From: Candidatus Nitrosopumilus sp.
Lineage (GTDB): Archaea; Thermoproteota; Nitrososphaeria; Nitrososphaerales; Nitrosopumilaceae
NCBI GenBank assembly: GCA_022758935.1
Contig: JAEMQG010000119.1
Coordinates: 1 to 10,228 of the forward strand
Length of the DNA: 10,228 bases
Direction of reading: 5' to 3'
Shown piece after piece: positions 2,561 through 10,228 of this stretch. The notes below the pieces were generated by a model. That model had not been told where the DNA came from, did no database searches, and saw only the letters and a list, made by a program, of their open reading frames with translations. A program made the translations under genes and the position numbers. Every line of letters begins with the position of its first letter. Position 1 is the stretch's first letter.

Positions 2561-2581
2561 CTGTGACAACTGCAGAACTGT

Positions 2582-2615
2582 CTATATTTCCCCGCCCATT
2601 ATGCTGGGAATATAG
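2582..2615. repeat. Hairpin in the left repeat copy (10-bp stem, 13-nt loop)
   Basis: CTATATT (2582-2588) pairs with AATATAG (2609-2615), and CCC (2590-2592) with GGG (2606-2608), leaving T2589 bulged. The loop is CGCCCATTATGCT. That loop sequence recurs exactly at 6414-6426, where these stem arms are not present on both sides. Confidence 0.75.
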
Positions 2616-2657
2616 TTGGGGCACGAGATTTTGCACTATTTACTTCTAAAACTACGT
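2591..2657 (+). repeat. Left copy of an arm-plus-core repeat bounding the redox block
   Basis: The core CCCGCCCATTATGCT (2591-2605) is followed by an arm at 2610-2657 that begins ATATAGTTGGGGCACGAG. The arm matches the reverse complement of 6361-6408 at 42 of 48 positions by hand alignment, with 29 of 31 in the part nearest the core. The core, by contrast, is in direct orientation in both copies. No open reading frame spans it. It may be the end of a non-autonomous mobile element, an inversion scar, or a duplicated promoter element of hisS. The repeat itself is certain; its nature is not. Confidence 0.85.
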
Positions 2658-2700
2658 GACTCAAGATTCTCATTAATTTGGGGGAATGGTAATTATTTTC

Positions 2701-2734
2701 TTACTTGGTATGGTTATTTTACCCTACTAAGTAA
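2701..2734. promoter_or_regulatory. Inverted-repeat operator candidate upstream of pirin
   Basis: TTACTTGGTA (2701-2710) and TACTAAGTAA (2725-2734) are inverted repeats with one mismatch and a 14-nt spacer. Each half holds a copy of TACTNRGTA. A perfect 10-bp palindrome AGTAATTACT (2734-2743) overlaps the right half. All of this lies just upstream of the pirin TATA box at 2749. A third TACTNRGTA (TACTAGGTA) lies at the start of hxlR, so binding by that regulator is the simplest guess. Inference only. Confidence 0.5.
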
Positions 2735-2748
2735 GTAATTACTACCAT

Positions 2749-2757
2749 CTTTAAATA
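2749..2757 (+). promoter_or_regulatory. TATA box of the pirin gene
   Basis: CTTTAAATA is centred about 25 nt before the GTG at 2779. This supports a leaderless transcript and the use of GTG as start, since no ATG lies nearby upstream in frame. Confidence 0.55.
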
Positions 2758-2778
2758 ATACACTGTGTATACTATATC

Positions 2779-3696
2779 GTGAAACAAAACACAACAAACA
2801 ACCAAAATCTAGTAAGAGATGAAACAGAGACTCGTTCCGTATCACAAGTCATCAATGCCAAAACAACATTAGAAGGCGAAGGATTTGTGGTGCATAGAGC
2901 ATTTCCAAATGGTTCACTTAGAGAGTTTTATACATTTCTTTTGTTAGATGAGATGGGGCCAATTGAAATATCTGCTGGAGAAGCAAAAGGAGCACCAGAT
3001 CATCCTCACAGAGGATTTGAGACTGTCACATACATGATTAAAGGCGTCTTTGAGCACAAAGACTCTCAAGGACATTCAGGAAAAATAAAAACTGGAGACG
3101 TTCAATGGATGACTGCTGGTTCTGGTGTAATTCATTCAGAGATGCCAGAAAAAGAATTTTCGCAAAAAGGTGGTACACTGCATGGATTTCAGTTATGGAT
3201 CAACTTGCCAAAAAAAGACAAAATGATGAAACCACGTTATCAGGATATTCCAGCAAACAAAATCCCAATAGCACAAAATGACGGTGTCAAAGTAAAGATA
3301 ATTGCAGGGGAATCAATGAGAGAAAAAGCAGTAATTGAAACAAGAACTCCTATAATGTATCTTCACTTTACCTTACAGCCTGACTCCAAAGTAACACAAA
3401 TCATTCCACAAAACTATAATGCATTTGCATATGTTGTAAATGGGGAAGGTTTGTTTGGAGACAAACAGATTCATGCCCACAAAGAACAAGTTATTCTCTT
3501 TGGGCAAGATGGAAATGAAATAACTATCAGAGCATCAAATGATTCATCTACACCATTGGATGTACTTTTGATTGCAGGTATTCCACTTGGTGAACCTGTT
3601 GCTCGTTATGGACCATTTGTCATGAATACGGAAGATGAGATCAAACAAGCAATACTAGATTACAACACTGGGAAAATGGGCAAAATTGACTTTTGA
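2779..3696 (+). CDS. Pirin family protein (bicupin, possible quercetinase)
   Basis: 305 residues, slightly longer than the usual 280-300. Pirins are iron-containing bicupins; some bacterial members oxidise the flavonol quercetin and others act as redox-sensitive partners of regulators or enzymes. The N-terminal cupin carries the four ligand residues in family spacing: His75 and His77 in DHPHRGFETVTY, then His119 and Glu121 in SGVIHSEMP. The C-terminal half (about 185-285) is the second, metal-free cupin typical of pirins, ending in GEPVARYGPFVMNT. The first 18 residues are polar and not conserved. The start is GTG at 2779, placed by the TATA box 25 nt upstream. It is the first gene of the redox block and is followed 81 bp later by hxlR. 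Specific substrate unknown. Confidence 0.93.
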   Translation: MKQNTTNNQNLVRDETETRSVSQVINAKTTLEGEGFVVHRAFPNGSLREFYTFLLLDEMGPIEISAGEAKGAPDHPHRGFETVTYMIKGVFEHKDSQGHSGKIKTGDVQWMTAGSGVIHSEMPEKEFSQKGGTLHGFQLWINLPKKDKMMKPRYQDIPANKIPIAQNDGVKVKIIAGESMREKAVIETRTPIMYLHFTLQPDSKVTQIIPQNYNAFAYVVNGEGLFGDKQIHAHKEQVILFGQDGNEITIRASNDSSTPLDVLLIAGIPLGEPVARYGPFVMNTEDEIKQAILDYNTGKMGKIDF

Positions 3697-3743
3697 GATG
3701 ATTAATTTCATTTCTAAAAGCCGATTTTCATTCCCGTAATCAC

Positions 3744-3754
3744 TTTTTTATAAT
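3744..3754 (+). promoter_or_regulatory. TATA box of the hxlR-type regulator
   Basis: TTTTTTATAAT is centred about 28 nt before the ATG at 3778. This favours that ATG, as a leaderless start, over the TTG at 3766, which would lie only about 16 nt from the box. Confidence 0.55.
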
Positions 3755-3769
3755 CAGATAATATTTTGC

Positions 3770-3778
3770 TACTAGGTA
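3770..3778. promoter_or_regulatory. Third TACTNRGTA site, at the hxlR start codon
   Basis: TACTAGGTA ends on the A of the hxlR ATG, where transcription is expected to begin. Together with TACTTGGTA (2702-2710) and TACTAAGTA (2725-2733), these are the only matches to TACTNRGTA I found in the window. The position would suit autorepression. Confidence 0.42.
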
Positions 3779-4137
3779 TGGAAACAGAATTTGAAAAAGA
3801 GAAAAGGACTCGCATTCAAGTAGGGTGTAATGCTGATGAAATATGGAGTGTTCTTGGAAAGACTTGGGCCCTATTAATTTTGAAAAAACTTACAGAAAAT
3901 GAATACACACGATTCAACGAAATTAAAAAAGCAATTCCACAGATAAGTAATACCGTATTATCTGAGCGACTGCGTGATCTTGAAGTATACGGTCTAATTA
4001 CAAAAAAAATCTATGCCCAAGTGCCAATACGAGTAGAATACAGCATAACAAAACAAACAAGTGAACTTGGGAAAATTCTAAAACAGTTAGATATCTGGGT
4101 CATAAAATGGCGAAAAGAAAAACCCAAAAAGAAATAA
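3778..4137 (+). CDS. HxlR/DUF24-family transcriptional regulator, single conserved Cys
   Basis: 119 residues from the ATG at 3778. It is a MarR-like winged-helix DNA-binding protein, expected to act as a dimer. The family signature is clear: Cys17 (VGCNADEIWSVLGKTWALLILKKL region, about 15-38), recognition helix around 55-72 (ISNTVLSERLRDLEVYGLI) and a wing at about 75-90 with VPIRVEYSIT. In Bacillus relatives such as YodB and HypR, the matching N-terminal Cys senses quinones, diamide or hypochlorite. Here it is the only cysteine in the protein, so oxidation would have to be intermolecular or by S-alkylation. An upstream in-frame TTG at 3766 would add four residues but lies too close to the TATA box. 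It sits between pirin and the Rieske fusion, so it probably regulates the block (inference). Confidence 0.93.
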   Translation: METEFEKEKRTRIQVGCNADEIWSVLGKTWALLILKKLTENEYTRFNEIKKAIPQISNTVLSERLRDLEVYGLITKKIYAQVPIRVEYSITKQTSELGKILKQLDIWVIKWRKEKPKKK

Positions 4138-4153
4138 AAATACAACACAAATC

Positions 4154-4168
4154 CTTTTAATTTTATAT
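4154..4168 (+). promoter_or_regulatory. TATA box of the Rieske-flavoprotein gene
   Basis: An A/T box (CTTTTAATTTTATAT) lies 18-30 nt before the TTG at 4184, in the 46-bp gap after hxlR. It supports a separate, leaderless transcript with a TTG start. Confidence 0.45.
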
Positions 4169-4183
4169 CTTCAACAAATAACA

Positions 4184-5284
4184 TTGGAAAAAAATTGGGT
4201 TGATCTTGGTTCTGTAGATTCATTGAAGTCTAAACCATTACAGGAAATCAAAGTGGGGCAAATTACTATTGCATTATCTTATCAGGATGGTAAGTTTGGT
4301 GCAGTCTCTGGTGTTTGTAATCATGTTGGAGGCCCATTAGGTAATGGGAAACTAGACGGTGACTATATTGTATGTCCATGGCATAATTGGAAATTTCATA
4401 GAACAACTGGATTTGGTGAACCAGGATTTGAAGAAGACAGAGTTCCTCAATTTGAGCTAAAAATTGAAAACGAACATCTCTTCATTAATACAAATTCCAT
4501 TACTCAGAGAAACAAACTGCCTCATCCATCACATGCATTAGCACGAGAAGTGAGACGAGAAGATGGACCAATACGAGTAGTAGGGATTTCAACTACAATA
4601 ATGGATTCAAAAAATCCTCGTTACTCTACTTCAGATAAATTACTTGAAGTTGCAATTAATCATGCAAAAAACGAGCTTGGAGCACAAACAATGTTTATTC
4701 GTCTAAATGATTTAAAATTCAGAGCATGTGAAGGCTATTATTCAAAAAGTGCAAAGGCCTGCACTTGGCCTTGCTCCATTACACAAATGGATGAGACAGA
4801 CCAGCTAGTACAAGTCTATGAAGCACTAGTTCATTGGGCAGATGTCATAATTGTTGCAACTCCAATACGTTGGGGTGCTGCAAGTTCATTGTACCATAAA
4901 ATGATTGAGCGATTCAACTGCATTCAGAATCAAATTACTCTAAATAACAAATCCCTAATTCAAAACAAGGTTGCAAGTTTTATCATCACTGGAGGCCAGG
5001 ATAATGTTCAGGATGTCGCAGGTCATATGCTTGGATTTTTTGCAGAAGTTGGATTTGTATTTCCACCATTTCCGTTTATTGCACATACAAGAGGATGGGA
5101 TGCAGAGGATATGGAAAACAACATTGCATATGTAGAAAAAAGTGAAGGACTCAAGGAAGGAGCAAAAGATCTTGTCAGAAGAAGCATAGAGATGGCAAAA
5201 ATAGTTCAGCACAAGCATATTTCTGAGCAAAAAATAGTAAAGGCTGGACGAAAGGCACAACCACTAAAAATTAGTGATACATGA
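4184..5284 (+). CDS. Rieske ferredoxin fused to FMN-reductase-type flavoprotein
   Basis: 366 residues in two domains. Residues 1-105 are a small soluble Rieske domain: Cys45-x-His47 and Cys64-x2-His67 (CNHVGGPLGNGKLDG then VCPWHNWKF) bind a 2Fe-2S cluster. Residues about 128-342 are a flavodoxin-fold NADPH-dependent FMN reductase: VVGISTTIM at the phosphate loop, a cysteine group Cys182, Cys193, Cys197 (ACEGYYSKSAKACTWPCS), VIIVATPIRWGAASS at 221-235 and the helix carrying MIERFN. The cysteine spacing differs from the CxxCxxC of iron-sulfur flavoproteins, so a second cluster is uncertain. The fusion suggests electrons pass between flavin and 2Fe-2S within one protein, perhaps NAD(P)H to FMN to Rieske to a quinone or oxygenase. 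The start is TTG at 4184, placed by the TATA box; residues 3-12 already belong to the Rieske fold. Function inferred. Confidence 0.9.
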   Translation: MEKNWVDLGSVDSLKSKPLQEIKVGQITIALSYQDGKFGAVSGVCNHVGGPLGNGKLDGDYIVCPWHNWKFHRTTGFGEPGFEEDRVPQFELKIENEHLFINTNSITQRNKLPHPSHALAREVRREDGPIRVVGISTTIMDSKNPRYSTSDKLLEVAINHAKNELGAQTMFIRLNDLKFRACEGYYSKSAKACTWPCSITQMDETDQLVQVYEALVHWADVIIVATPIRWGAASSLYHKMIERFNCIQNQITLNNKSLIQNKVASFIITGGQDNVQDVAGHMLGFFAEVGFVFPPFPFIAHTRGWDAEDMENNIAYVEKSEGLKEGAKDLVRRSIEMAKIVQHKHISEQKIVKAGRKAQPLKISDT

Positions 5285-5309
5285 ATATTTTATCGATAAA
5301 TATTTTTTT
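5284..5309 (+). terminator. Hairpin plus T7 tract after the Rieske fusion gene
   Basis: AATATT-TTATCGATAA-AATATT can fold around TTATCGATAA with one bulged T, and is followed by seven T (5303-5309). It begins on the last base of the stop codon. The T tract alone could end archaeal transcription. The same stretch overlaps the promoter of the next gene. Confidence 0.4.
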
Positions 5310-5315
5310 AAAATT
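5303..5315 (+). promoter_or_regulatory. TATA box of the 5336 gene
   Basis: TTTTTTTAAAATT is centred near 5310, about 26 nt before the ATG at 5336. It matches the leaderless pattern of the neighbouring genes and favours that ATG over the internal ATG at 5408. Confidence 0.42.
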
Positions 5316-5335
5316 TAGAACTAGAGAATGTTTTT

Positions 5336-5797
5336 ATGTCAATATGTGTATTGTATGTTCTGTCAGAAAATACCAGTAACGACTCTGAGATTTCAATATG
5401 TGACATTATGAAAAACAGAACATCAGAGATAGTTAAAAAAATTGAATGCCAGCTTCCACTAACTGTACAGCAATATTCTGATCTTTATACGGCATATCTC
5501 CACTCAATTGATGATGTGTTTGGTACGTGTTATATCTCACAAAAAGAGTTTTTTGACAAGTTAGGTATTTCTCAGGGGGCTCTAAGAAATTTTGACAAGT
5601 ATCTAGAGTCAATAAGCAAGTCATACCAAAACTGGATTGATCTGAGTTCAAAATATGGACAAGACTATGTACAGACACGATTATCCATGATAAAGTCATC
5701 TGATCAATTTATTCACATGGCAATGGATTCGTATGCAAAAATGTTGGTAAAATTCAATGAGATGTGTAATTCAAACACAAGAAAACTTGTTAAATAA
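5336..5797 (+). CDS. Unrecognised helical protein, possibly phasin-like
   Basis: 153 residues, not recognised with confidence. There is no signal peptide or membrane segment. Residues 25-150 look almost wholly alpha-helical and amphipathic, with long runs such as NFDKYLESISKSYQNWIDL and DSYAKMLVKFNEM, and one short glycine-containing break (KLGISQGAL) near 80-88. The layout of paired helices resembles phasins or PhaE-like granule proteins, which some thaumarchaea encode with PHA synthase, but no defining motif is visible. Five cysteines (4, 22, 38, 62, 145) are not arranged as a cluster. Residues 1-24 look less structured, so ATG at 5408 is an alternative start, but the TATA spacing supports 5336. 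It sits inside the redox block, 51 bp after the Rieske fusion and 21 bp before the cupin, whose TATA box overlaps its stop codon. Confidence 0.75.
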   Translation: MSICVLYVLSENTSNDSEISICDIMKNRTSEIVKKIECQLPLTVQQYSDLYTAYLHSIDDVFGTCYISQKEFFDKLGISQGALRNFDKYLESISKSYQNWIDLSSKYGQDYVQTRLSMIKSSDQFIHMAMDSYAKMLVKFNEMCNSNTRKLVK

Positions 5798-5799
5798 TC
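5790..5799 (+). promoter_or_regulatory. TATA box of the cupin gene, overlapping the previous stop codon
   Basis: TTAAATAATC is centred about 25 nt before the ATG at 5819 and contains the TAA stop of the preceding gene. It again fits a leaderless start, so the cupin can be transcribed independently. Confidence 0.5.
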
Positions 5800-5818
5800 T
5801 CATGCGATAAAAATTAAC

Positions 5819-6289
5819 ATGATTGAAAGAACAGTCAAAATTGTCGAACCGGATAAAGGAAGACACATAGCAATTGCTAATGATATAAACACAATTCTTG
5901 CATCAAAAGAAGATACTGAAGGAACCTATAGCATTTTAGAAATCAAAGTATTCCCAAATGGAGGTCCATTACCACATATTCAAACACGTGAACACGAAGG
6001 GTTTTACATTATTGAAGGGCAGATAGTTTTTAATGTAAATGGAAAAAGAATAGAGGCAAACCCAGGAACATTTGTAAATGTTCCACCAGGGATCTTACAT
6101 AGTTTTAAAAATGAACAAGACAAAGTTGCAAAAATAATAGTTGTTTTATCACCACCTGGATTGGAACAACTTTTCGTTGAGGCAGGAATAGAAATTTCTG
6201 ATAATCATGTCAAACCACCGCCTTTTGATGAAAAACAGAAGCAAAAATTGATGAATATATTTCCTAAATACGGAGTTAAATTACAATGA
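5819..6289 (+). CDS. Cupin-domain protein with HxQ in place of HxH
   Basis: 156 residues, a single cupin of the quercetinase-like group. The core at about 38-108 shows motif 1 as GGPLPHIQTREHEGFYIIEG and motif 2 as NVPPGILHSFKN. Expected metal ligands are His53, the second His of HxH, Glu60 and His94. The second His is replaced by Gln55 (CAT ATT CAA), while His59 sits next to the conserved Glu. Metal binding may therefore be altered, or His59 may take part. Residues 110-156 form a helical tail (PPGLEQLFVEAGIEI and following) seen in related stand-alone cupins. The stop TGA overlaps the ATG of an FMN reductase remnant (ATGA, 6286-6289), showing the two were once translationally coupled. A dioxygenase or isomerase role on quinone-like or aromatic compounds is possible but not shown. 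Confidence 0.9.
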   Translation: MIERTVKIVEPDKGRHIAIANDINTILASKEDTEGTYSILEIKVFPNGGPLPHIQTREHEGFYIIEGQIVFNVNGKRIEANPGTFVNVPPGILHSFKNEQDKVAKIIVVLSPPGLEQLFVEAGIEISDNHVKPPPFDEKQKQKLMNIFPKYGVKLQ

Positions 6290-6351
6290 CAAAACCAAAA
6301 ATTCTTGCATTTGCAGGAAGTACTAGAACGGATTCATTTTATAAAAAATAG
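6286..6351 (+). pseudogene. Remnant of an NADPH-dependent FMN (quinone) reductase, N-terminus only
   Basis: The ATG overlaps the cupin stop (ATGA). The 21 codons read MTKPKILAFAGSTRTDSF and then YKK before TAG. This is the first strand and phosphate-binding loop of the NADPH-dependent FMN reductase family, whose members usually start like KILAFAGSLRKDSFNKKL and run about 180 residues. After the TAG no flavodoxin-like sequence follows in any frame I checked, and the repeat arm begins at 6361. I infer that the rest of the gene was lost in the event that created this junction. Too short to fold as a flavoprotein. It differs from the flavoprotein half of the Rieske fusion upstream, so it is not a simple copy of it. 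Confidence 0.8.
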
Positions 6352-6360
6352 ATATCCTAT

Positions 6361-6426
6361 ACCTAATTTTAGATGGAAATAGTGCAAAATCTCATGCCCT
6401 AACTATATACACCCGCCCATTATGCT
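6361..6426 (-). repeat. Right copy of the arm-plus-core repeat
   Basis: The arm at 6361-6408 contains AATAGTGCAAAATCTCATG and is the inverse of 2657-2610 (42/48). It is followed by CCCGCCCATTATGCT at 6412-6426, identical and in the same strand orientation as 2591-2605. The arm starts 10 bp after the FMN reductase remnant ends and lies 68 bp or more upstream of the udg start. No transposase gene lies between the copies, so if mobile it would have to be moved in trans. Confidence 0.85.
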
Positions 6427-6434
6427 CCCGTTAC

Positions 6435-6469
6435 AATTTGAACCAATTAGAATGATTTAGGTTCAAATT
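6435..6469. repeat. Perfect 10-bp inverted repeat upstream of udg
   Basis: AATTTGAACC (6435-6444) and GGTTCAAATT (6460-6469) pair perfectly around a 15-nt loop. It lies directly after the right repeat copy and 25 nt before the udg start, a place for an operator or a hairpin. The GGTTCAAATT half resembles a tRNA T-loop, but no other tRNA arm can be found. Confidence 0.55.
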
Positions 6470-6493
6470 CAAATTATCATACGTCTTAAAAGA

Positions 6494-7216
6494 TTGAAAG
6501 AGGGGGTGAGGAAAGATATCATCACCAAAGATAATTACCTAAATTCAATACAGCATATTCAATTGAAATTAATCTCGCTTGATAAAAAAATAGAAAATTG
6601 CACCAAATGTCCCAGACTCTCATTGTACATAAGAGACATAGCCAAAAATAAGGTAAGACGATTCCAAGATCAACAGTATTGGGGAAAGCCTCTTTCAGGC
6701 TTTGGGGATATCAATGCAAAATTGTTCATTGTTGGACTAGCACCTGCAGCTCATGGTGGAAACAGAACAGGTAGAATGTTTACAGGTGATTCCTCAGGGG
6801 ATTGGCTTGCAAAAGTATTGCACAAAAATGGATTTTCCTCAAAACCAACAAGTGAAGCAAAAAATGATGGACTAGTACTAAATAATGCATACATTACTGC
6901 TGCAGTTAGATGTGCGCCACCACAAAACAAACCAACTAGAGAAGAAATGCAAAATTGTTTTAATTATCTACAACAAGAATATAAAATTCTAAAAAATGTT
7001 ATAGTTATTTTATGTCTTGGAAAAATTGCTTATGATACGACATGTAAATTAGTACATGTAAAGCCAGAAAAGTTTGGACATAATAAATTATTTAAGTATG
7101 ACAGAATTAAAATTCTAACTTCATATCACCCATCAAAGCAAAATACACAGACAGGTAGACTAACATGGAAACAATGGTCTGCAGTTTTTCAAAAAGCAAA
7201 AAAGATGACAAGATAA
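6494..7216 (+). CDS. Family 5 uracil-DNA glycosylase (UdgB)
   Basis: 240 residues. It should remove uracil, and probably hypoxanthine or other deaminated bases, from DNA as the first step of base excision repair. The family 5 signature is clear: motif 1 GLAPAAHGGNRTGRMFTGD at 81-99, which has Ala where most UDGs carry an Asp, Asn or Glu water activator, and the C-terminal motif SYHPSKQNTQTGR at 210-222. Four cysteines, Cys36, Cys39 (CTKCPRL), Cys140 and Cys155, have the spacing of the 4Fe-4S cluster. The start is uncertain: TTG at 6494 is given; GTG at 6506, next to a G-rich GAGGGGGTG, or TTG at 6563 would remove only poorly conserved residues. The gene follows the right repeat copy and reads away from the redox block, so it is probably not part of it. 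Confidence 0.93.
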   Translation: MKEGVRKDIITKDNYLNSIQHIQLKLISLDKKIENCTKCPRLSLYIRDIAKNKVRRFQDQQYWGKPLSGFGDINAKLFIVGLAPAAHGGNRTGRMFTGDSSGDWLAKVLHKNGFSSKPTSEAKNDGLVLNNAYITAAVRCAPPQNKPTREEMQNCFNYLQQEYKILKNVIVILCLGKIAYDTTCKLVHVKPEKFGHNKLFKYDRIKILTSYHPSKQNTQTGRLTWKQWSAVFQKAKKMTR

Positions 7217-7223
7217 AATGGAG

Positions 7224-7335
7224 TTTTTTAGAACAAAGAATTTTTAAAATTTGGTTTGATACTGTAATACCTTTGTCAATTATTTTCATAAATATTCTAG
7301 ACTGTATGATGACTTGAAATTACTGATAATTCAAG
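7224..7335. terminator. Possible terminator signals between convergent udg and the pentapeptide gene
   Basis: A T6 run (7224-7229) follows the udg stop. CTTGAAATT (7313-7321) and AATTCAAG (7328-7335) can form an 8-bp stem with one bulge close to the end of the minus-strand gene. The 134-bp gap holds no credible gene. Signals are weak. Confidence 0.3.
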
Positions 7336-7350
7336 GTATGTAAAGCTAGT

Positions 7351-7848
7351 CTACCACAATTTACCTTGTTTTTTTAATATAGATTTGGTATTGCCAGAAA
7401 TAGTATCTAATGTGTGCAAATCATAATTTGCATCTGTAAAATCAACTCCTGTAAGAATTGCACCTTCAAAGTTTGTATGCCTAAGATTTACACCGCTTAA
7501 ATTGGCCTCACTCAAGTCAGCACTTCTCAAATCGGTATAAAACAAGTCAGAACCTCGAAGGTCTGCACCTCGAAGGTCTGCACCATACAAGTCAGCATCC
7601 CATAGTTTTGCATCAAATAGATTGGTTGTTCTCATATCAGCGCCTCTTAATTTGACATAAAACAGGATTGCACCACTCAAGTTAGCTCCGCTTAGATCAG
7701 TACAACTTAGATCAGCATTGTGAATGTCTCTGTTTTTAAGATCAACCCCGCTCATATTGGAATTTGATAGATTTCTTCCAATCAAATCCTCATAATCAAA
7801 ATTAACGCTTGAGAGATTTCTTTTTCTAAAAACGTCAGATGAATTCAT
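7351..7848 (-). CDS. Pentapeptide-repeat protein
   Basis: 165 residues. Residues 11-140 are 26 uninterrupted pentapeptides of the A(D/N)LXX type, kept in a single register (NLSSV NFDYE and so on to DFTDA), which should fold into a right-handed quadrilateral beta-helix of about 6.5 turns. There is no signal peptide. A short unique tail (141-165) follows. Some members mimic DNA and protect gyrase, but most have no known role, and nothing here points to a partner. Two adjacent 15-bp units ACCTCGAAGGTCTGC (7552-7581, plus strand) are identical, a sign of recent repeat-unit duplication. It is the only minus-strand gene in the right half and has a free-standing promoter. Confidence 0.93.
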   Translation of the reverse strand: MNSSDVFRKRNLSSVNFDYEDLIGRNLSNSNMSGVDLKNRDIHNADLSCTDLSGANLSGAILFYVKLRGADMRTTNLFDAKLWDADLYGADLRGADLRGSDLFYTDLRSADLSEANLSGVNLRHTNFEGAILTGVDFTDANYDLHTLDTISGNTKSILKKQGKLW

Positions 7849-7873
7849 GGTATATTACAAATAACACAAAAAA

Positions 7874-7883
7874 GCATATTTGA
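7874..7883 (-). promoter_or_regulatory. Possible TATA box of the pentapeptide-repeat gene
   Basis: On the minus strand TTCAAATATG... is centred about 30 nt before the ATG at 7848. Weak but in the right place for a leaderless or nearly leaderless start. Confidence 0.3.
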
Positions 7884-8298
7884 ATTAAGATATAAAGAAA
7901 AATTGGTAAACAAGATAGAAATCAATCAGGATAGAGATCCCTAACAAATCTCATAATTAGAAAAATTTTAGATGTAATTTTTTAAAAATACAGGAGATGA
8001 AGAATTTATATTACAAGGTTAGATTCATTGATCCAACATAAGGAGGATGTCATCTCAATTAATCGCAAATTCCTTGACATGTTATCTTCCTTATGATAAA
8101 TGTTCTAAAACATAATTTAGAAAATATCCGTCACATAATCATCTCCCCAGAGAAATGGTAAAACTAATTTTTAACACTAATTAATTCAATCAATAGCATT
8201 GTAAATCAGCCAAGAAAAATACTAGATATTTTAAAAATAAGATTTGTTAAAATTGAATATAATATTATGAATAGTTGGAGTGTCAAATAAAAAGATCA

Positions 8299-8313
8299 AT
8301 ATAAATAATATTT
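8299..8313 (+). promoter_or_regulatory. TATA box of the VOC gene
   Basis: ATATAAATAATATT lies about 25 nt before the ATG at 8329, the strongest TATA-like box in the window and consistent with a leaderless mRNA. Confidence 0.55.
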
Positions 8314-8328
8314 CTCATAAAACTTGGT

Positions 8329-8697
8329 ATGCCAAGAATAACCCATTTTGATATTCCAGCAGATGATCCTCTTAGGGCACAAAAATTCTACAAGGAGGTA
8401 TTTAATTGGAAGTTCGAAAAGTGGAATGGCCCAATGGAATATTGGATGGCATATACAGGTGATGAAAAACAACCTGGGATTAACGGCGGTCTTGCAAAGC
8501 GATTGCCAGGTCAATCAGGTATGACAAATACAATTGAGGTTCCATCAATTGATGAGTATTCAAAACTTATTCAATCAAAGGGAGGCCATATACTAGTCCC
8601 TAAAATGTCTATTCCAGGAGTAGGTTATTTCGCACAGTGTATAGATACCGAAGGGAACACATTTGGGATTATTCAGATGGAACAAAACGCAAAATAG
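8329..8697 (+). CDS. VOC-superfamily (glyoxalase/bleomycin-resistance-like) protein
   Basis: 122 residues, one full VOC unit of two beta-alpha-beta-beta-beta modules. It belongs to the group of enzymes related to lactoylglutathione lyase, as shown by THFDIPADDPLRAQKFYKEVFNWKFEKW at the start (written in part: FDIPADDP, FYKEVFNW), GGL at 53-55, GGHILVPKMSIPGVGYF at 85-101 and DTEGNTFGIIQ at 106-116. His6 is the usual first metal ligand, while the last ligand position appears to be Gln116 rather than Glu. Substrate unknown; thaumarchaea lack glutathione, so lactoylglutathione is unlikely. It stands alone between a 480-bp gap and archease. Confidence 0.88.
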   Translation: MPRITHFDIPADDPLRAQKFYKEVFNWKFEKWNGPMEYWMAYTGDEKQPGINGGLAKRLPGQSGMTNTIEVPSIDEYSKLIQSKGGHILVPKMSIPGVGYFAQCIDTEGNTFGIIQMEQNAK

Positions 8698-8757
8698 TTT
8701 TTGTGTTGTTAAAAATAAAATAGAATGCAAAAACAAGATTTATTATGAATAATTTCT

Positions 8758-8781
8758 TTGTTTAAAGATTTTTTTAAACAA
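8758..8781. terminator. Perfect hairpin between the VOC and archease genes
   Basis: TTGTTTAAA (8758-8766) and TTTAAACAA (8773-8781) form a 9-bp perfect stem with a 6-nt loop, inside a T-rich stretch 61 bp after the VOC stop. It may end the VOC transcript or serve as an operator for archease, whose TATA box lies 30 bp downstream. Confidence 0.4.
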
Positions 8782-8810
8782 TGATTGGTTAGTACCTGAA
8801 AAACCATCTA

Positions 8811-8820
8811 AATTAATAAT
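8811..8820 (+). promoter_or_regulatory. TATA box of archease
   Basis: AATTAATAAT is centred about 27 nt before the TTG at 8843, supporting the TTG as start of a leaderless mRNA. Confidence 0.45.
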
Positions 8821-8842
8821 TAGCAAGATTTCAAAAATATAA

Positions 8843-9259
8843 TTGAGTTACAAGTTTTTAGATCATGCAACGGATGCAATTATTGAAGTCATTGCTAAAG
8901 ATCTCAAAGAGGCATTTTTAGTCACAGCAGATGCTGTGATCAATCTCACACTAGATAAGGACAGAGTGGAAGAGAAAGAACAAAGAGAGTTTACTGCACA
9001 AGGAAAAGATCTCAGATATCTTTTGTTTAGTTGGCTTGAAGAGGTGACCTTTATTTTAATCACAGAGGGTTTTGCAATAAGAAGAATAGATATTGAAATT
9101 CAAGAAAATAATGGCTACAAGATATACGCTAAAGCATATGGAGAGTCACTAGAGTTTCTAAAACATAACTTCAAAGTCGAGATAAAGGCCCCTACGTTTT
9201 ACGATATGGAGATCAGACAAAATGGTCAAGTTTACATGCGCTTTTTACTTGATCTATGA
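8843..9259 (+). CDS. Archease (RtcB tRNA-ligase activator)
   Basis: 138 residues, the usual archaeal archease length. Archease speeds guanylylation and turnover of the RNA ligase RtcB, which joins tRNA exon halves after intron removal. The N-terminal signature YKFLDHATDA matches the family's FLDHTAD, and KVEIKAPTFYDMEI at 171-style positions 110-123 matches the conserved VKAVTYH segment. Asp11, Asp38 and Asp137 at the C-terminus (FLLDL) are in the places expected for the metal-binding acidic residues. The start is TTG at 8843: the conserved motif begins at residue 3, leaving no room for a later start, and a TATA box lies 27 nt upstream. No rtcB or tRNA-splicing gene is in the window. Confidence 0.93.
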   Translation: MSYKFLDHATDAIIEVIAKDLKEAFLVTADAVINLTLDKDRVEEKEQREFTAQGKDLRYLLFSWLEEVTFILITEGFAIRRIDIEIQENNGYKIYAKAYGESLEFLKHNFKVEIKAPTFYDMEIRQNGQVYMRFLLDL

Positions 9260-9303
9260 GTTGTGTGAATTATTCTTGGCAAATCAATAGAAGAAATTAT
9301 ACG

Positions 9304-9315
9304 TGTTTTTTAAAA
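9304..9315 (+). promoter_or_regulatory. Possible TATA box of the secreted-protein gene
   Basis: GTTTTTTAAAAG is centred about 29 nt before the ATG at 9339. A purine-rich AGAGGATT (9319-9326) lies 12 nt before the start and could serve as a weak ribosome-binding site if a leader exists. Confidence 0.35.
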
Positions 9316-9338
9316 GTAAAGAGGATTAAGATCATAAC

Positions 9339-10228
9339 ATGCGAACTAAGCTAGGAGTATTTTTGGTATTTTCGCTAGTTTTCGTTATGATCGTTCCAGC
9401 CAACGCAGCTGTGTCTTCTATATCACTTGAGAAGGATTCCTACACAATAGAGGAACTAATGATATTTATTGGAAAAGAACAAACTGGGAAAAAATCAGTT
9501 TTTGTGGTTATTGATAATCCTACAGGAGTCTATGTAGGGATGCTTTCAGATCCTTCATCAGATGTGGATGGATCATTTTCAACAATTCCAAGAGAAGTAA
9601 CAAAATTTTTTAAATCCAAAGGAATCTACAATGCAACTGCATTTACGGATGATCAAAAAAAGAATGAGGGGTTAGCCATCAAATTACAATTTGATGGAAA
9701 CAAAATTTTTGTTGTTCCAGATTTTGTACTATCACTTAATTCAATTCCAGACAAGACAATAGAGGAAAAAAAGACCTTGACGTTTATCCCTACATTGACT
9801 CAATCATTAACAGGGGTAACATACAGTCTTGAAAAAAATCCACCAGTTGGCGCATCTATTGATGAACAGACAGGAAAATTCACATGGACTCCCATCGAAT
9901 CTCAGGGTCCAGGTCAATATGTTTTTGACATAGTAGTAAAAAAAGGAGGATTGGACGATAGACAAAGTGTAAAAATAATAGTAACTGATGCAATTACAAC
10001 ACCAATATGTACATCTACTCAGCATTTGAGTAATGGAGTCTGCGTTGCAGATACATCAATCCCTATTCCTGAACCTAAACCAATACCAGAACCAAAAGAA
10101 ACAGGAATAGCATCTTTTGTTGATCCTAAAAAAGATCCACAGTCTTATGTTGACAGATACAACAATGAGCCAACCTACAAGAAATGGTTTGATGAAAACT
10201 TTCCAGAATATTCTTCAATTTATGAAGC
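9339..10228 (+). CDS. Secreted Ig-like domain protein, 3' end cut by window edge
   Basis: 296 full codons, open at the right edge. Residues 1-24 are a Sec signal peptide: MRTK, hydrophobic stretch VFLVFSLVFVMIV, then PANA-A. Residues about 28-130 form a beta-rich domain (SLEKDSYTIEELMIFIG opening, as in archaeal surface proteins with macroglobulin-like strands). Residues about 132-216 look like a putative Ig/cadherin-like (He_PIG) domain with YSLEKNPPVGASIDEQTGKF and TWTP. A Cys224-Cys235 pair (CTSTQHLSNGVC) may form a disulfide, followed by a Pro/Glu linker (PIPEPKPIPEPK, 243-253). The tail YNNEPTYKKWFDENFPEY (274-291) resembles, from memory, tails of thaumarchaeal exported proteins that precede a C-terminal anchor. 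Whether an anchor follows cannot be seen. Function unknown; probably cell-surface attached. Confidence 0.88.
   Translation, partial: MRTKLGVFLVFSLVFVMIVPANAAVSSISLEKDSYTIEELMIFIGKEQTGKKSVFVVIDNPTGVYVGMLSDPSSDVDGSFSTIPREVTKFFKSKGIYNATAFTDDQKKNEGLAIKLQFDGNKIFVVPDFVLSLNSIPDKTIEEKKTLTFIPTLTQSLTGVTYSLEKNPPVGASIDEQTGKFTWTPIESQGPGQYVFDIVVKKGGLDDRQSVKIIVTDAITTPICTSTQHLSNGVCVADTSIPIPEPKPIPEPKETGIASFVDPKKDPQSYVDRYNNEPTYKKWFDENFPEYSSIYE

Follow-up and report, generated by a model that had tools for sequence, protein, structure and literature searches.

A probable natural Cas1-less casposon carrying redox genes between hisS and udg in a Candidatus Nitrosopumilus genome

Background

The hisS-udg locus of Candidatus Nitrosopumilus sp. 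raises the question of what the two inverted repeat arms represent that bracket a block of redox genes. The locus is contained in a stretch of 10,228 nt (contig JAEMQG010000119.1), the whole of which is referred to here as the window and on which all positions are counted. In the original prediction, the arms were described together with a 15-nt core that had seemingly turned over relative to one of them, and the footprint of a non-autonomous mobile element, a site-specific inversion and a duplicated promoter element were put forward as possible explanations.

Judging from the sequence, it is highly probable that positions 2606-6411 (minus strand, 3,806 bp) represent a natural non-autonomous casposon, or 'mini-casposon', in which host-type redox genes are placed between casposon terminal inverted repeats (TIRs) and in which neither Cas1 nor a family B DNA polymerase (PolB) is detectable. 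The element is referred to as E1, and its leader-proximal end lies on the udg side. The evidence comprises the similarity of its TIRs to those of Cas1-bearing casposons, a perfect 15-bp target-site duplication (TSD), the geometry of the target leader, a site with a single TSD in a related genome (G010), and the lack of detectable Cas1 and PolB.

Ends of E1 and target-site duplication

The arms at positions 2610-2657 and 6361-6408 are 48 nt long and 88% complementary and differ from each other at about 6 of the 48 positions. Among the inverted repeats listed for the window they rank first in length, ahead of one with 40 nt and 70%. The plus strand of the window contains exactly two copies of the 15-mer CCCGCCCATTATGCT, and the other strand none. 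Both the arms and the direct orientation of the core are thus as the original prediction described them. The 15-mer flanks both arms on the outside, in direct orientation, and the arms face inward with their tips pointing outward. Inverted repeats that face inward and are immediately flanked by identical direct repeats are a signature of transposition; the arms are therefore read as TIRs and the 15-mer as a TSD. In sequence terms, the arms are casposon TIRs and the 'core' is the TSD that adjoins them externally. The puzzle of the turned-over core disappears because the core is a target-site duplication; nothing has been flipped, and the proposed site-specific inversion is left without support.

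The leader-distal TIR (2606-2657, plus strand, tip GGGAATATAG) was delimited by the inverted-repeat listing and by TIR comparison, and the leader-proximal TIR (6344-6411, minus strand, tip TGTATATAG) by matches to the ends of the elements E3, A1 and A2 described below. The distal copy of the TSD occupies positions 2591-2605 and the leader-proximal copy positions 6412-6426 (both plus strand). The two copies are identical at 15/15 positions, in line with the 14-15-bp TSD of a casposon-type insertion. Dinucleotide shuffling of the two 60-nt flanks, repeated 20,000 times, never gave a register-locked exact match of 15; the best value was 10.

Cas1-bearing casposons with the same ends

The genome that contains the window (G000) is a draft of 205 contigs with a completeness of 85%. 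Further copies of the arm are found on its contigs C50, C133 and C93. An 89-bp arm query was matched in 9 of 18 genomes of the genus (G000 included) at E ≤ 0.01. In a contig collection of 84,980 species, the exact arm pattern was detected in 20 stretches from 10 genomes, which are labelled Nitrosarchaeum (4), Nitrosopumilus (4), 'Thaumarchaeota archaeon' (1) and 'archaeon' (1); it had no match among viral contigs.

Contig C93 encodes a Cas1 protein of 404 aa (PF01867, E 3e-56). Its best solved relative is PDB entry 6opm (E 8.6e-76; next Cas1, 3e-28), a code that occurs twice in the paper on the Methanosarcina mazei casposase (PMC6977970). The last ~30 bases of this contig match the arm. In two related genomes, the same arms bracket a Cas1 gene, namely in A1 (G049, 16679-33366) and A2 (G118, 76670-92484), with Cas1 proteins that are 81% and 79% identical to the C93 protein, respectively, and with TSDs matching at 14/15 positions in either case. 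The leader-proximal TIR of E1 is 79% identical to the corresponding end of A1 and 77% to that of A2, both over 75 nt, and 94% identical over 67 nt to the leader-proximal end of E3, a Cas1-less element of Nitrosarchaeum sp. BD3. The sharing of TIRs between E1 and Cas1-bearing casposons supports reading E1 as an insertion of the casposon type.

A1 also encodes an 863-aa PolB candidate, of which A2 has a shortened version and C93 a part cut by the contig end. The candidate shows a weak NCBIfam match to DNA polymerase II (E 3e-4, far below the cut-off) and a YCDTDS motif, and it has no match in Pfam, PHROGs or PDB; direct support for its being a PolB is weak. By Pfam, no transposase or other recombinase was found in the 19 of 20 A1 open reading frames (ORFs) scanned (18 and the PolB candidate, the remaining ORF being Cas1), nor in the 18 of 22 A2 ORFs scanned (the others being Cas1 and three further ORFs outside the scan). 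Host and gene content suggest that C93, A1 and A2 belong to the family 1 casposons.

Two further TIR types bracket Cas1 genes as well: B-type TIRs in G137 (TSD 14/14) and C-type TIRs in G217 (TSD 14/14) and G014 (13/14). The type found in E1 (A-type) is absent around the other Cas1 loci of the genus within the stretches fetched. Altogether, 11 TIR-bracketed stretches were collected, 9 of which have TSDs with at most one mismatch.

Leader motif at the target site

The family 2 casposase of A. boonei depends on two features of its target, a TCAAATC motif located 8 bp upstream of the TSD and a TSD that begins with CC (PMC6614799). Read from udg, the window presents TCAAATT, 8 nt, AGCATAATGGGCGGG and the TIR tip. 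The leader motif GGTTCAAATT is located at positions 6435-6444 (minus strand), where 8 bp separate the end of TCAAATT from the TSD, the same spacing as in the published A. boonei target with its 14-15-bp TSD. The window thus displays TCAAAT(C/T) 8 bp upstream of the TSD, a rule established for a family 2 enzyme. The A. boonei target differs in that it is a tRNA-Pro gene with CC at the border of leader and TSD, whereas the TSD of the window starts with AG and the TSDs at tRNA-Ser genes start with CG.

For the A-type TIRs, 30 ends were available, one of which is cut by a contig end, leaving 29 that can be tested for a leader. TCAA[AG]T was found at the corresponding spacing in 14 of them, compared with a mean of 0.1 and a maximum of 2 in shuffled sequences. 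Among the other 15 ends, 13 are distal ends or adjoin another TIR across a TSD; at an end in G008 the motif lies 4-6 bp closer, and the end at G010:C53:1368 is unexplained. Of these 14 leaders, seven coincide with the 3' end of a tRNA-Ser or tRNA-Leu gene; at the other seven, including that of the window, ARAGORN detected no tRNA. The B-type casposon of G137 is located at a tRNA-Glu gene. No tRNA or Rfam family was detected in the window (Rfam at gathering thresholds). A tRNA-Glu origin of the window's leader was set aside as only suggestive, with 52 of 2,000 shuffles scoring equally well. That these thaumarchaeal elements follow a leader rule described for a family 2 enzyme points to an old origin of that rule.

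A second copy of tRNA-Ser, with anticodon ACT, was observed beside casposon ends in G000 (L017, 931-1017) and in BD3 (L160, 13052-13138), with a GCT copy nearby in both genomes. The extra copy may have arisen through duplication of a tRNA by an integrated element.

The hisS locus in related genomes

The hisS regions of 14 genomes were fetched, namely of G010 and 13 others. G010 is the closest relative within the genus by hisS (94%); it carries udg at the corresponding place and lacks the E1 block. It aligns with the window at positions 1155-2566 and 6406-9538, with a different cargo of 1.65 kb in between. When the flanks of the window are joined with one copy of the TSD, they align to G010 through the leader and the TSD into GTATAGACA. 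As the original prediction had pointed out, relatives without the block that still carry both repeat copies would indicate a regulatory element; the opposite was found, since the TSD is present only once in G010 and the block is missing there.

The G010 sequence GTATAGACA takes the place of window positions 2580-2590 and resembles a B-type TIR tip. In the window, these positions (about GGAAATATAGAC, minus strand) abut the hisS promoter and resemble the B-type tip GGGAATATAGACAG of the G137 casposon; they are probably the tip remnant of an older B-type casposon. The hisS upstream sequence of the relatives is retained up to about position 2579. A far TIR of this putative B-type element was not seen in G010.

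In the 13 other hisS stretches, pirin, the Rieske gene and udg had no tblastn match. With up to 3 mismatches allowed, the tip motif GGGGATATAGTTAGG is absent from them; matches to the inner motif AGATTTTGCACTATTTC appeared only at the limit of 4 mismatches, as expected by chance. In 11 of these 13 loci, hisS is followed by the archease gene within the stretch.

The 1.65-kb cargo of G010 (L060, 3135-4790) is located behind a B-type-like casposon tip at the target of E1, with its far end unseen. It contains three ORFs that by eye appear FMN-binding, PhnB-like and DUF1428-like. The interval between hisS and the archease gene (window 2580-7970) looks like a hot spot of gene insertion: udg is found only in G000 and G010 among the 18 genus genomes, and the hisS-archease spacing is highly variable among the other stretches. 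Upstream of the archease gene, a near-perfect hairpin of 59 bp is located at window positions 8037-8095, without an Rfam match at gathering thresholds. It recurs with 57-59 bp in 11 of 14 hisS-region stretches of genus-mates and could be a conserved RNA or a binding site.

Cargo of E1

All cargo genes are encoded on the plus strand. They comprise a pirin gene (2779-3696; PF02678/PF05726), an HxlR-type regulator (3778-4137; PF01638), a fusion of a Rieske [2Fe-2S] domain with an FMN reductase-like domain, termed Rieske-flavoprotein (4184-5284; PF00355, PF03358), a 153-aa protein without Pfam match (5336-5797), which has a homologue beside the Rieske gene in G012, and a cupin (5819-6289; PF07883). 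The last item is the 5' fragment of an FMN reductase-like gene (6286-6351) that is cut at the TIR and was recognized by its similarity to G012:C12. Residues 4-21 of the fragment are 89% identical to a stretch of G012:C12, the reading frame stops beside the arm and the DNA match ends at position 6348; the name FMN reductase is the label given to it in the original prediction. The gene list of that prediction proved right.

The Rieske fusion gene is present in 3 of the 18 genus genomes (G000 included). In G012, it adjoins the gene for the 153-aa protein and the start of the FMN reductase gene, so that part of the cargo exists away from the E1 site. The E1 proteins had no tblastn match in the 12 other element stretches compared. 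Regarding Cas1 in E1, no PF01867 match was obtained on contig C113 and the best tblastn hit had an E-value of 1.2; for PolB, there was no match better than E 0.38. Neither the Cas1-family casposase nor the family B DNA polymerase of an autonomous casposon is thus detectable in E1.

Other elements with casposon ends

Two further Cas1-less elements have TSDs that are identical at 15/15 positions. E2, on contig C50 of G000, has a size of 1.0 kb and contains short ORFs only. E3 of Nitrosarchaeum sp. BD3 comprises 7.5 kb and encodes histidine kinase domains, a response regulator, an acetyltransferase and a DDE transposase (371 aa); Cas1 had no match in the BD3 genome, which is 97% complete.

Three candidates were not counted. 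E4 of G049 (15.5 kb, TSD 15/15) was left out of the Cas1-less elements because 3,243 of its bases read N, and G010:C53 (11.7 kb between TIRs) because its TSDs mismatch and a Cas1 fragment lies inside. A 2.1-kb B-type unit of G137 with a TrkH-type gene was set aside as a proven element owing to its poor distal TSD. This unit is part of an arrangement at G137:C4, 105454-119503 (L138/L139), in which an autonomous B-type casposon at the tRNA-Glu gene is followed in tandem by the TIR-bracketed unit with its single TrkH gene. A search for TSD-based partner ends of unpaired TIRs gave no convincing candidate within the fetched stretches, 1.2 to 12 kb inward.

Alternative explanations

Alternatively, E1 might be the decayed relic of a once-autonomous casposon, from which Cas1 and PolB were deleted, in which the host genes are later arrivals and which never transposed as the present block. 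Deletion derivatives of this kind do exist, given that E3 has 195 nt of interior DNA in common with A2 and that G010:C53 keeps a Cas1 fragment between its TIRs. In E1, however, casposon core genes have left no trace, and the two TSD copies have not diverged at any of the 15 positions, which suggests a young insertion. This history is regarded as unlikely, though it retains some weight. That the arms are the ends of a DDE-transposase element (an insertion sequence, IS, or a miniature inverted-repeat transposable element, MITE) and are shared with casposons by accident could draw on the DDE transposase gene between the arms of E3. It is nevertheless very unlikely: A1 and A2 encode Cas1, with no DDE transposase or tyrosine recombinase found in their scanned ORFs, both the leader spacing and the TSD length of 14-15 bp agree with casposases, and the E3 transposase is most simply explained as an IS inside E3.

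Two independent solo TIRs might flank a host gene block by chance, as unpaired TIR ends exist in the fetched stretches (e.g. G002, C133) and solo TIRs have been reported for M. mazei (cited in PMC6977970). Independent insertions, though, would not give identical 15-bp direct repeats outside inward-facing TIRs, as the shuffles illustrate, and the single-TSD site in G010 disfavours them further, making such a coincidence most improbable. An assembly chimera caused by the repeat is of equally slight probability. The draft does consist of 205 contigs and C93 ends inside the repeat, but the hisS and udg flanks are collinear in G010, the arms differ at several positions and a misjoin would not create a matching TSD. 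Least credible of all are a regulatory role of the arms, for instance as a duplicated promoter, and a site-specific inversion. Both arms do lie in intergenic, AT-rich DNA; TIRs of the E1 type, however, bracket Cas1 genes and sit at tRNA 3' ends at a fixed spacing, and with the core read as a TSD nothing is inverted. An integron attC reading, considered in thought only, was dropped in view of the outer conserved arms and the TSDs. Among the explanations of the original prediction, it is thus the footprint of a non-autonomous mobile element that agrees with the casposon TIRs, the TSD, the casposase leader motif and the site in G010.

Several observations weigh against interpreting E1 as a mini-casposon. 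The inner part of its distal TIR matches the leader-proximal ends of E3 (43 nt, 91%) and E2 (45 nt, 89%) best and is thus closer to these than to the distal ends of other elements (E3 distal end: 48 nt, 83%). The distal TIRs of E2 (13.3 bits, E 0.025) and A2 (14.7 bits, E 0.009) are weak, and the element on C93 is assembled at one end only, with its TSD and second TIR unseen. Two of the 11 TIR-bracketed stretches, G010:C53 and the 2.1-kb unit of G137, have no matching TSD. TIR types and casposase clades do not correspond one-to-one, as the G014 Cas1 is 82% identical to that of C93, yet its TIRs are of C-type. The TIR ends of the leader count are not independent: of the seven leaders that are tRNA genes, five or six represent a single tRNA-Ser gene and its copies in related genomes. 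E3, from a genome without a Cas1 match, contains a DDE transposase gene, and E1 itself could be an immobile relic.

Proposed mechanism

If E1 is a mini-casposon, a casposase would have joined both TIR ends to staggered positions of the 14-15-bp target located 8 bp downstream of the TCAAATT leader, and repair of the gaps would have duplicated the target, as in CRISPR spacer integration. A B-type casposon was probably inserted first, and E1 then leader-proximally, in front of it. In G000, the remainder of the B-type element would have been deleted up to the hisS promoter, apparently leaving its tip at positions 2580-2590. Capture of the cargo may go back to the joining of a casposon end to the interior of an FMN reductase-like gene. 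The casposase presumably came from another element, for instance that on C93. We infer such mobilisation of E1 in trans, by a casposase encoded elsewhere, from the laboratory mini-casposon of M. mazei, which integrates at the TSD of the resident casposon, forming a tandem, with Cas1 supplied from the chromosome (PMC10359463).

A broader and more tentative reading, which we consider possible rather than probable, is that Nitrosopumilaceae use casposase target sites as gene arrays, in which Cas1-less cargo elements and autonomous casposons are stacked at the leader-proximal TSD by casposases acting in trans.

Relation to known casposons

E1 resembles the Nitrosopumilus family 1 casposons (NitAR1-C1 and others; PMC4046053, PMC6563490) in its TIRs, its TSD, the tandem stacking and the Cas1-encoding relatives with the same ends. 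It differs from them in having redox cargo and no Cas1 or PolB. The target of E1-type elements is a TCAAAT leader (3' ends of tRNA-Ser, tRNA-Leu and tRNA-Glu genes, or non-tRNA sites), whereas most described family 1 casposons are located in protein-coding genes (PMC6614799). With the laboratory mini-casposon of M. mazei, E1 shares the order TSD-TIR-cargo-TIR-TSD without Cas1 and a similar TIR tip (GGGATATAG there, GGGAATATAG in E1); that element is man-made and E1 is natural (PMC10359463). The solo TIRs of M. mazei (Krupovic et al. 2016, cited in PMC6977970) are likewise casposon ends without Cas1 in a chromosome, but consist of a single TIR of 19 or 31 bp without cargo.

Casposons, solo TIRs, laboratory mini-casposons and tandem insertion of casposons in Thaumarchaeota (PMC6563490) are thus already known. 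The literature searches returned no report of a natural casposon that lacks Cas1 and carries host-type cargo, and novelty is claimed with respect to these searches.

Conclusions

CRISPR adaptation has been proposed to derive from casposons. If natural cargo casposons without Cas1 are real, they would show that arbitrary DNA placed between TIRs is moved in trans by a Cas1 integrase and inserted on the leader-proximal side, a step required by the CRISPR-origin model. Should the target sites indeed serve as gene arrays, the order leader-TSD-cargo-TSD-cargo would correspond to the architecture and acquisition order of a CRISPR array with gene-sized 'spacers'. For ammonia-oxidising archaea, natural cargo casposons would be a route of gene transfer.

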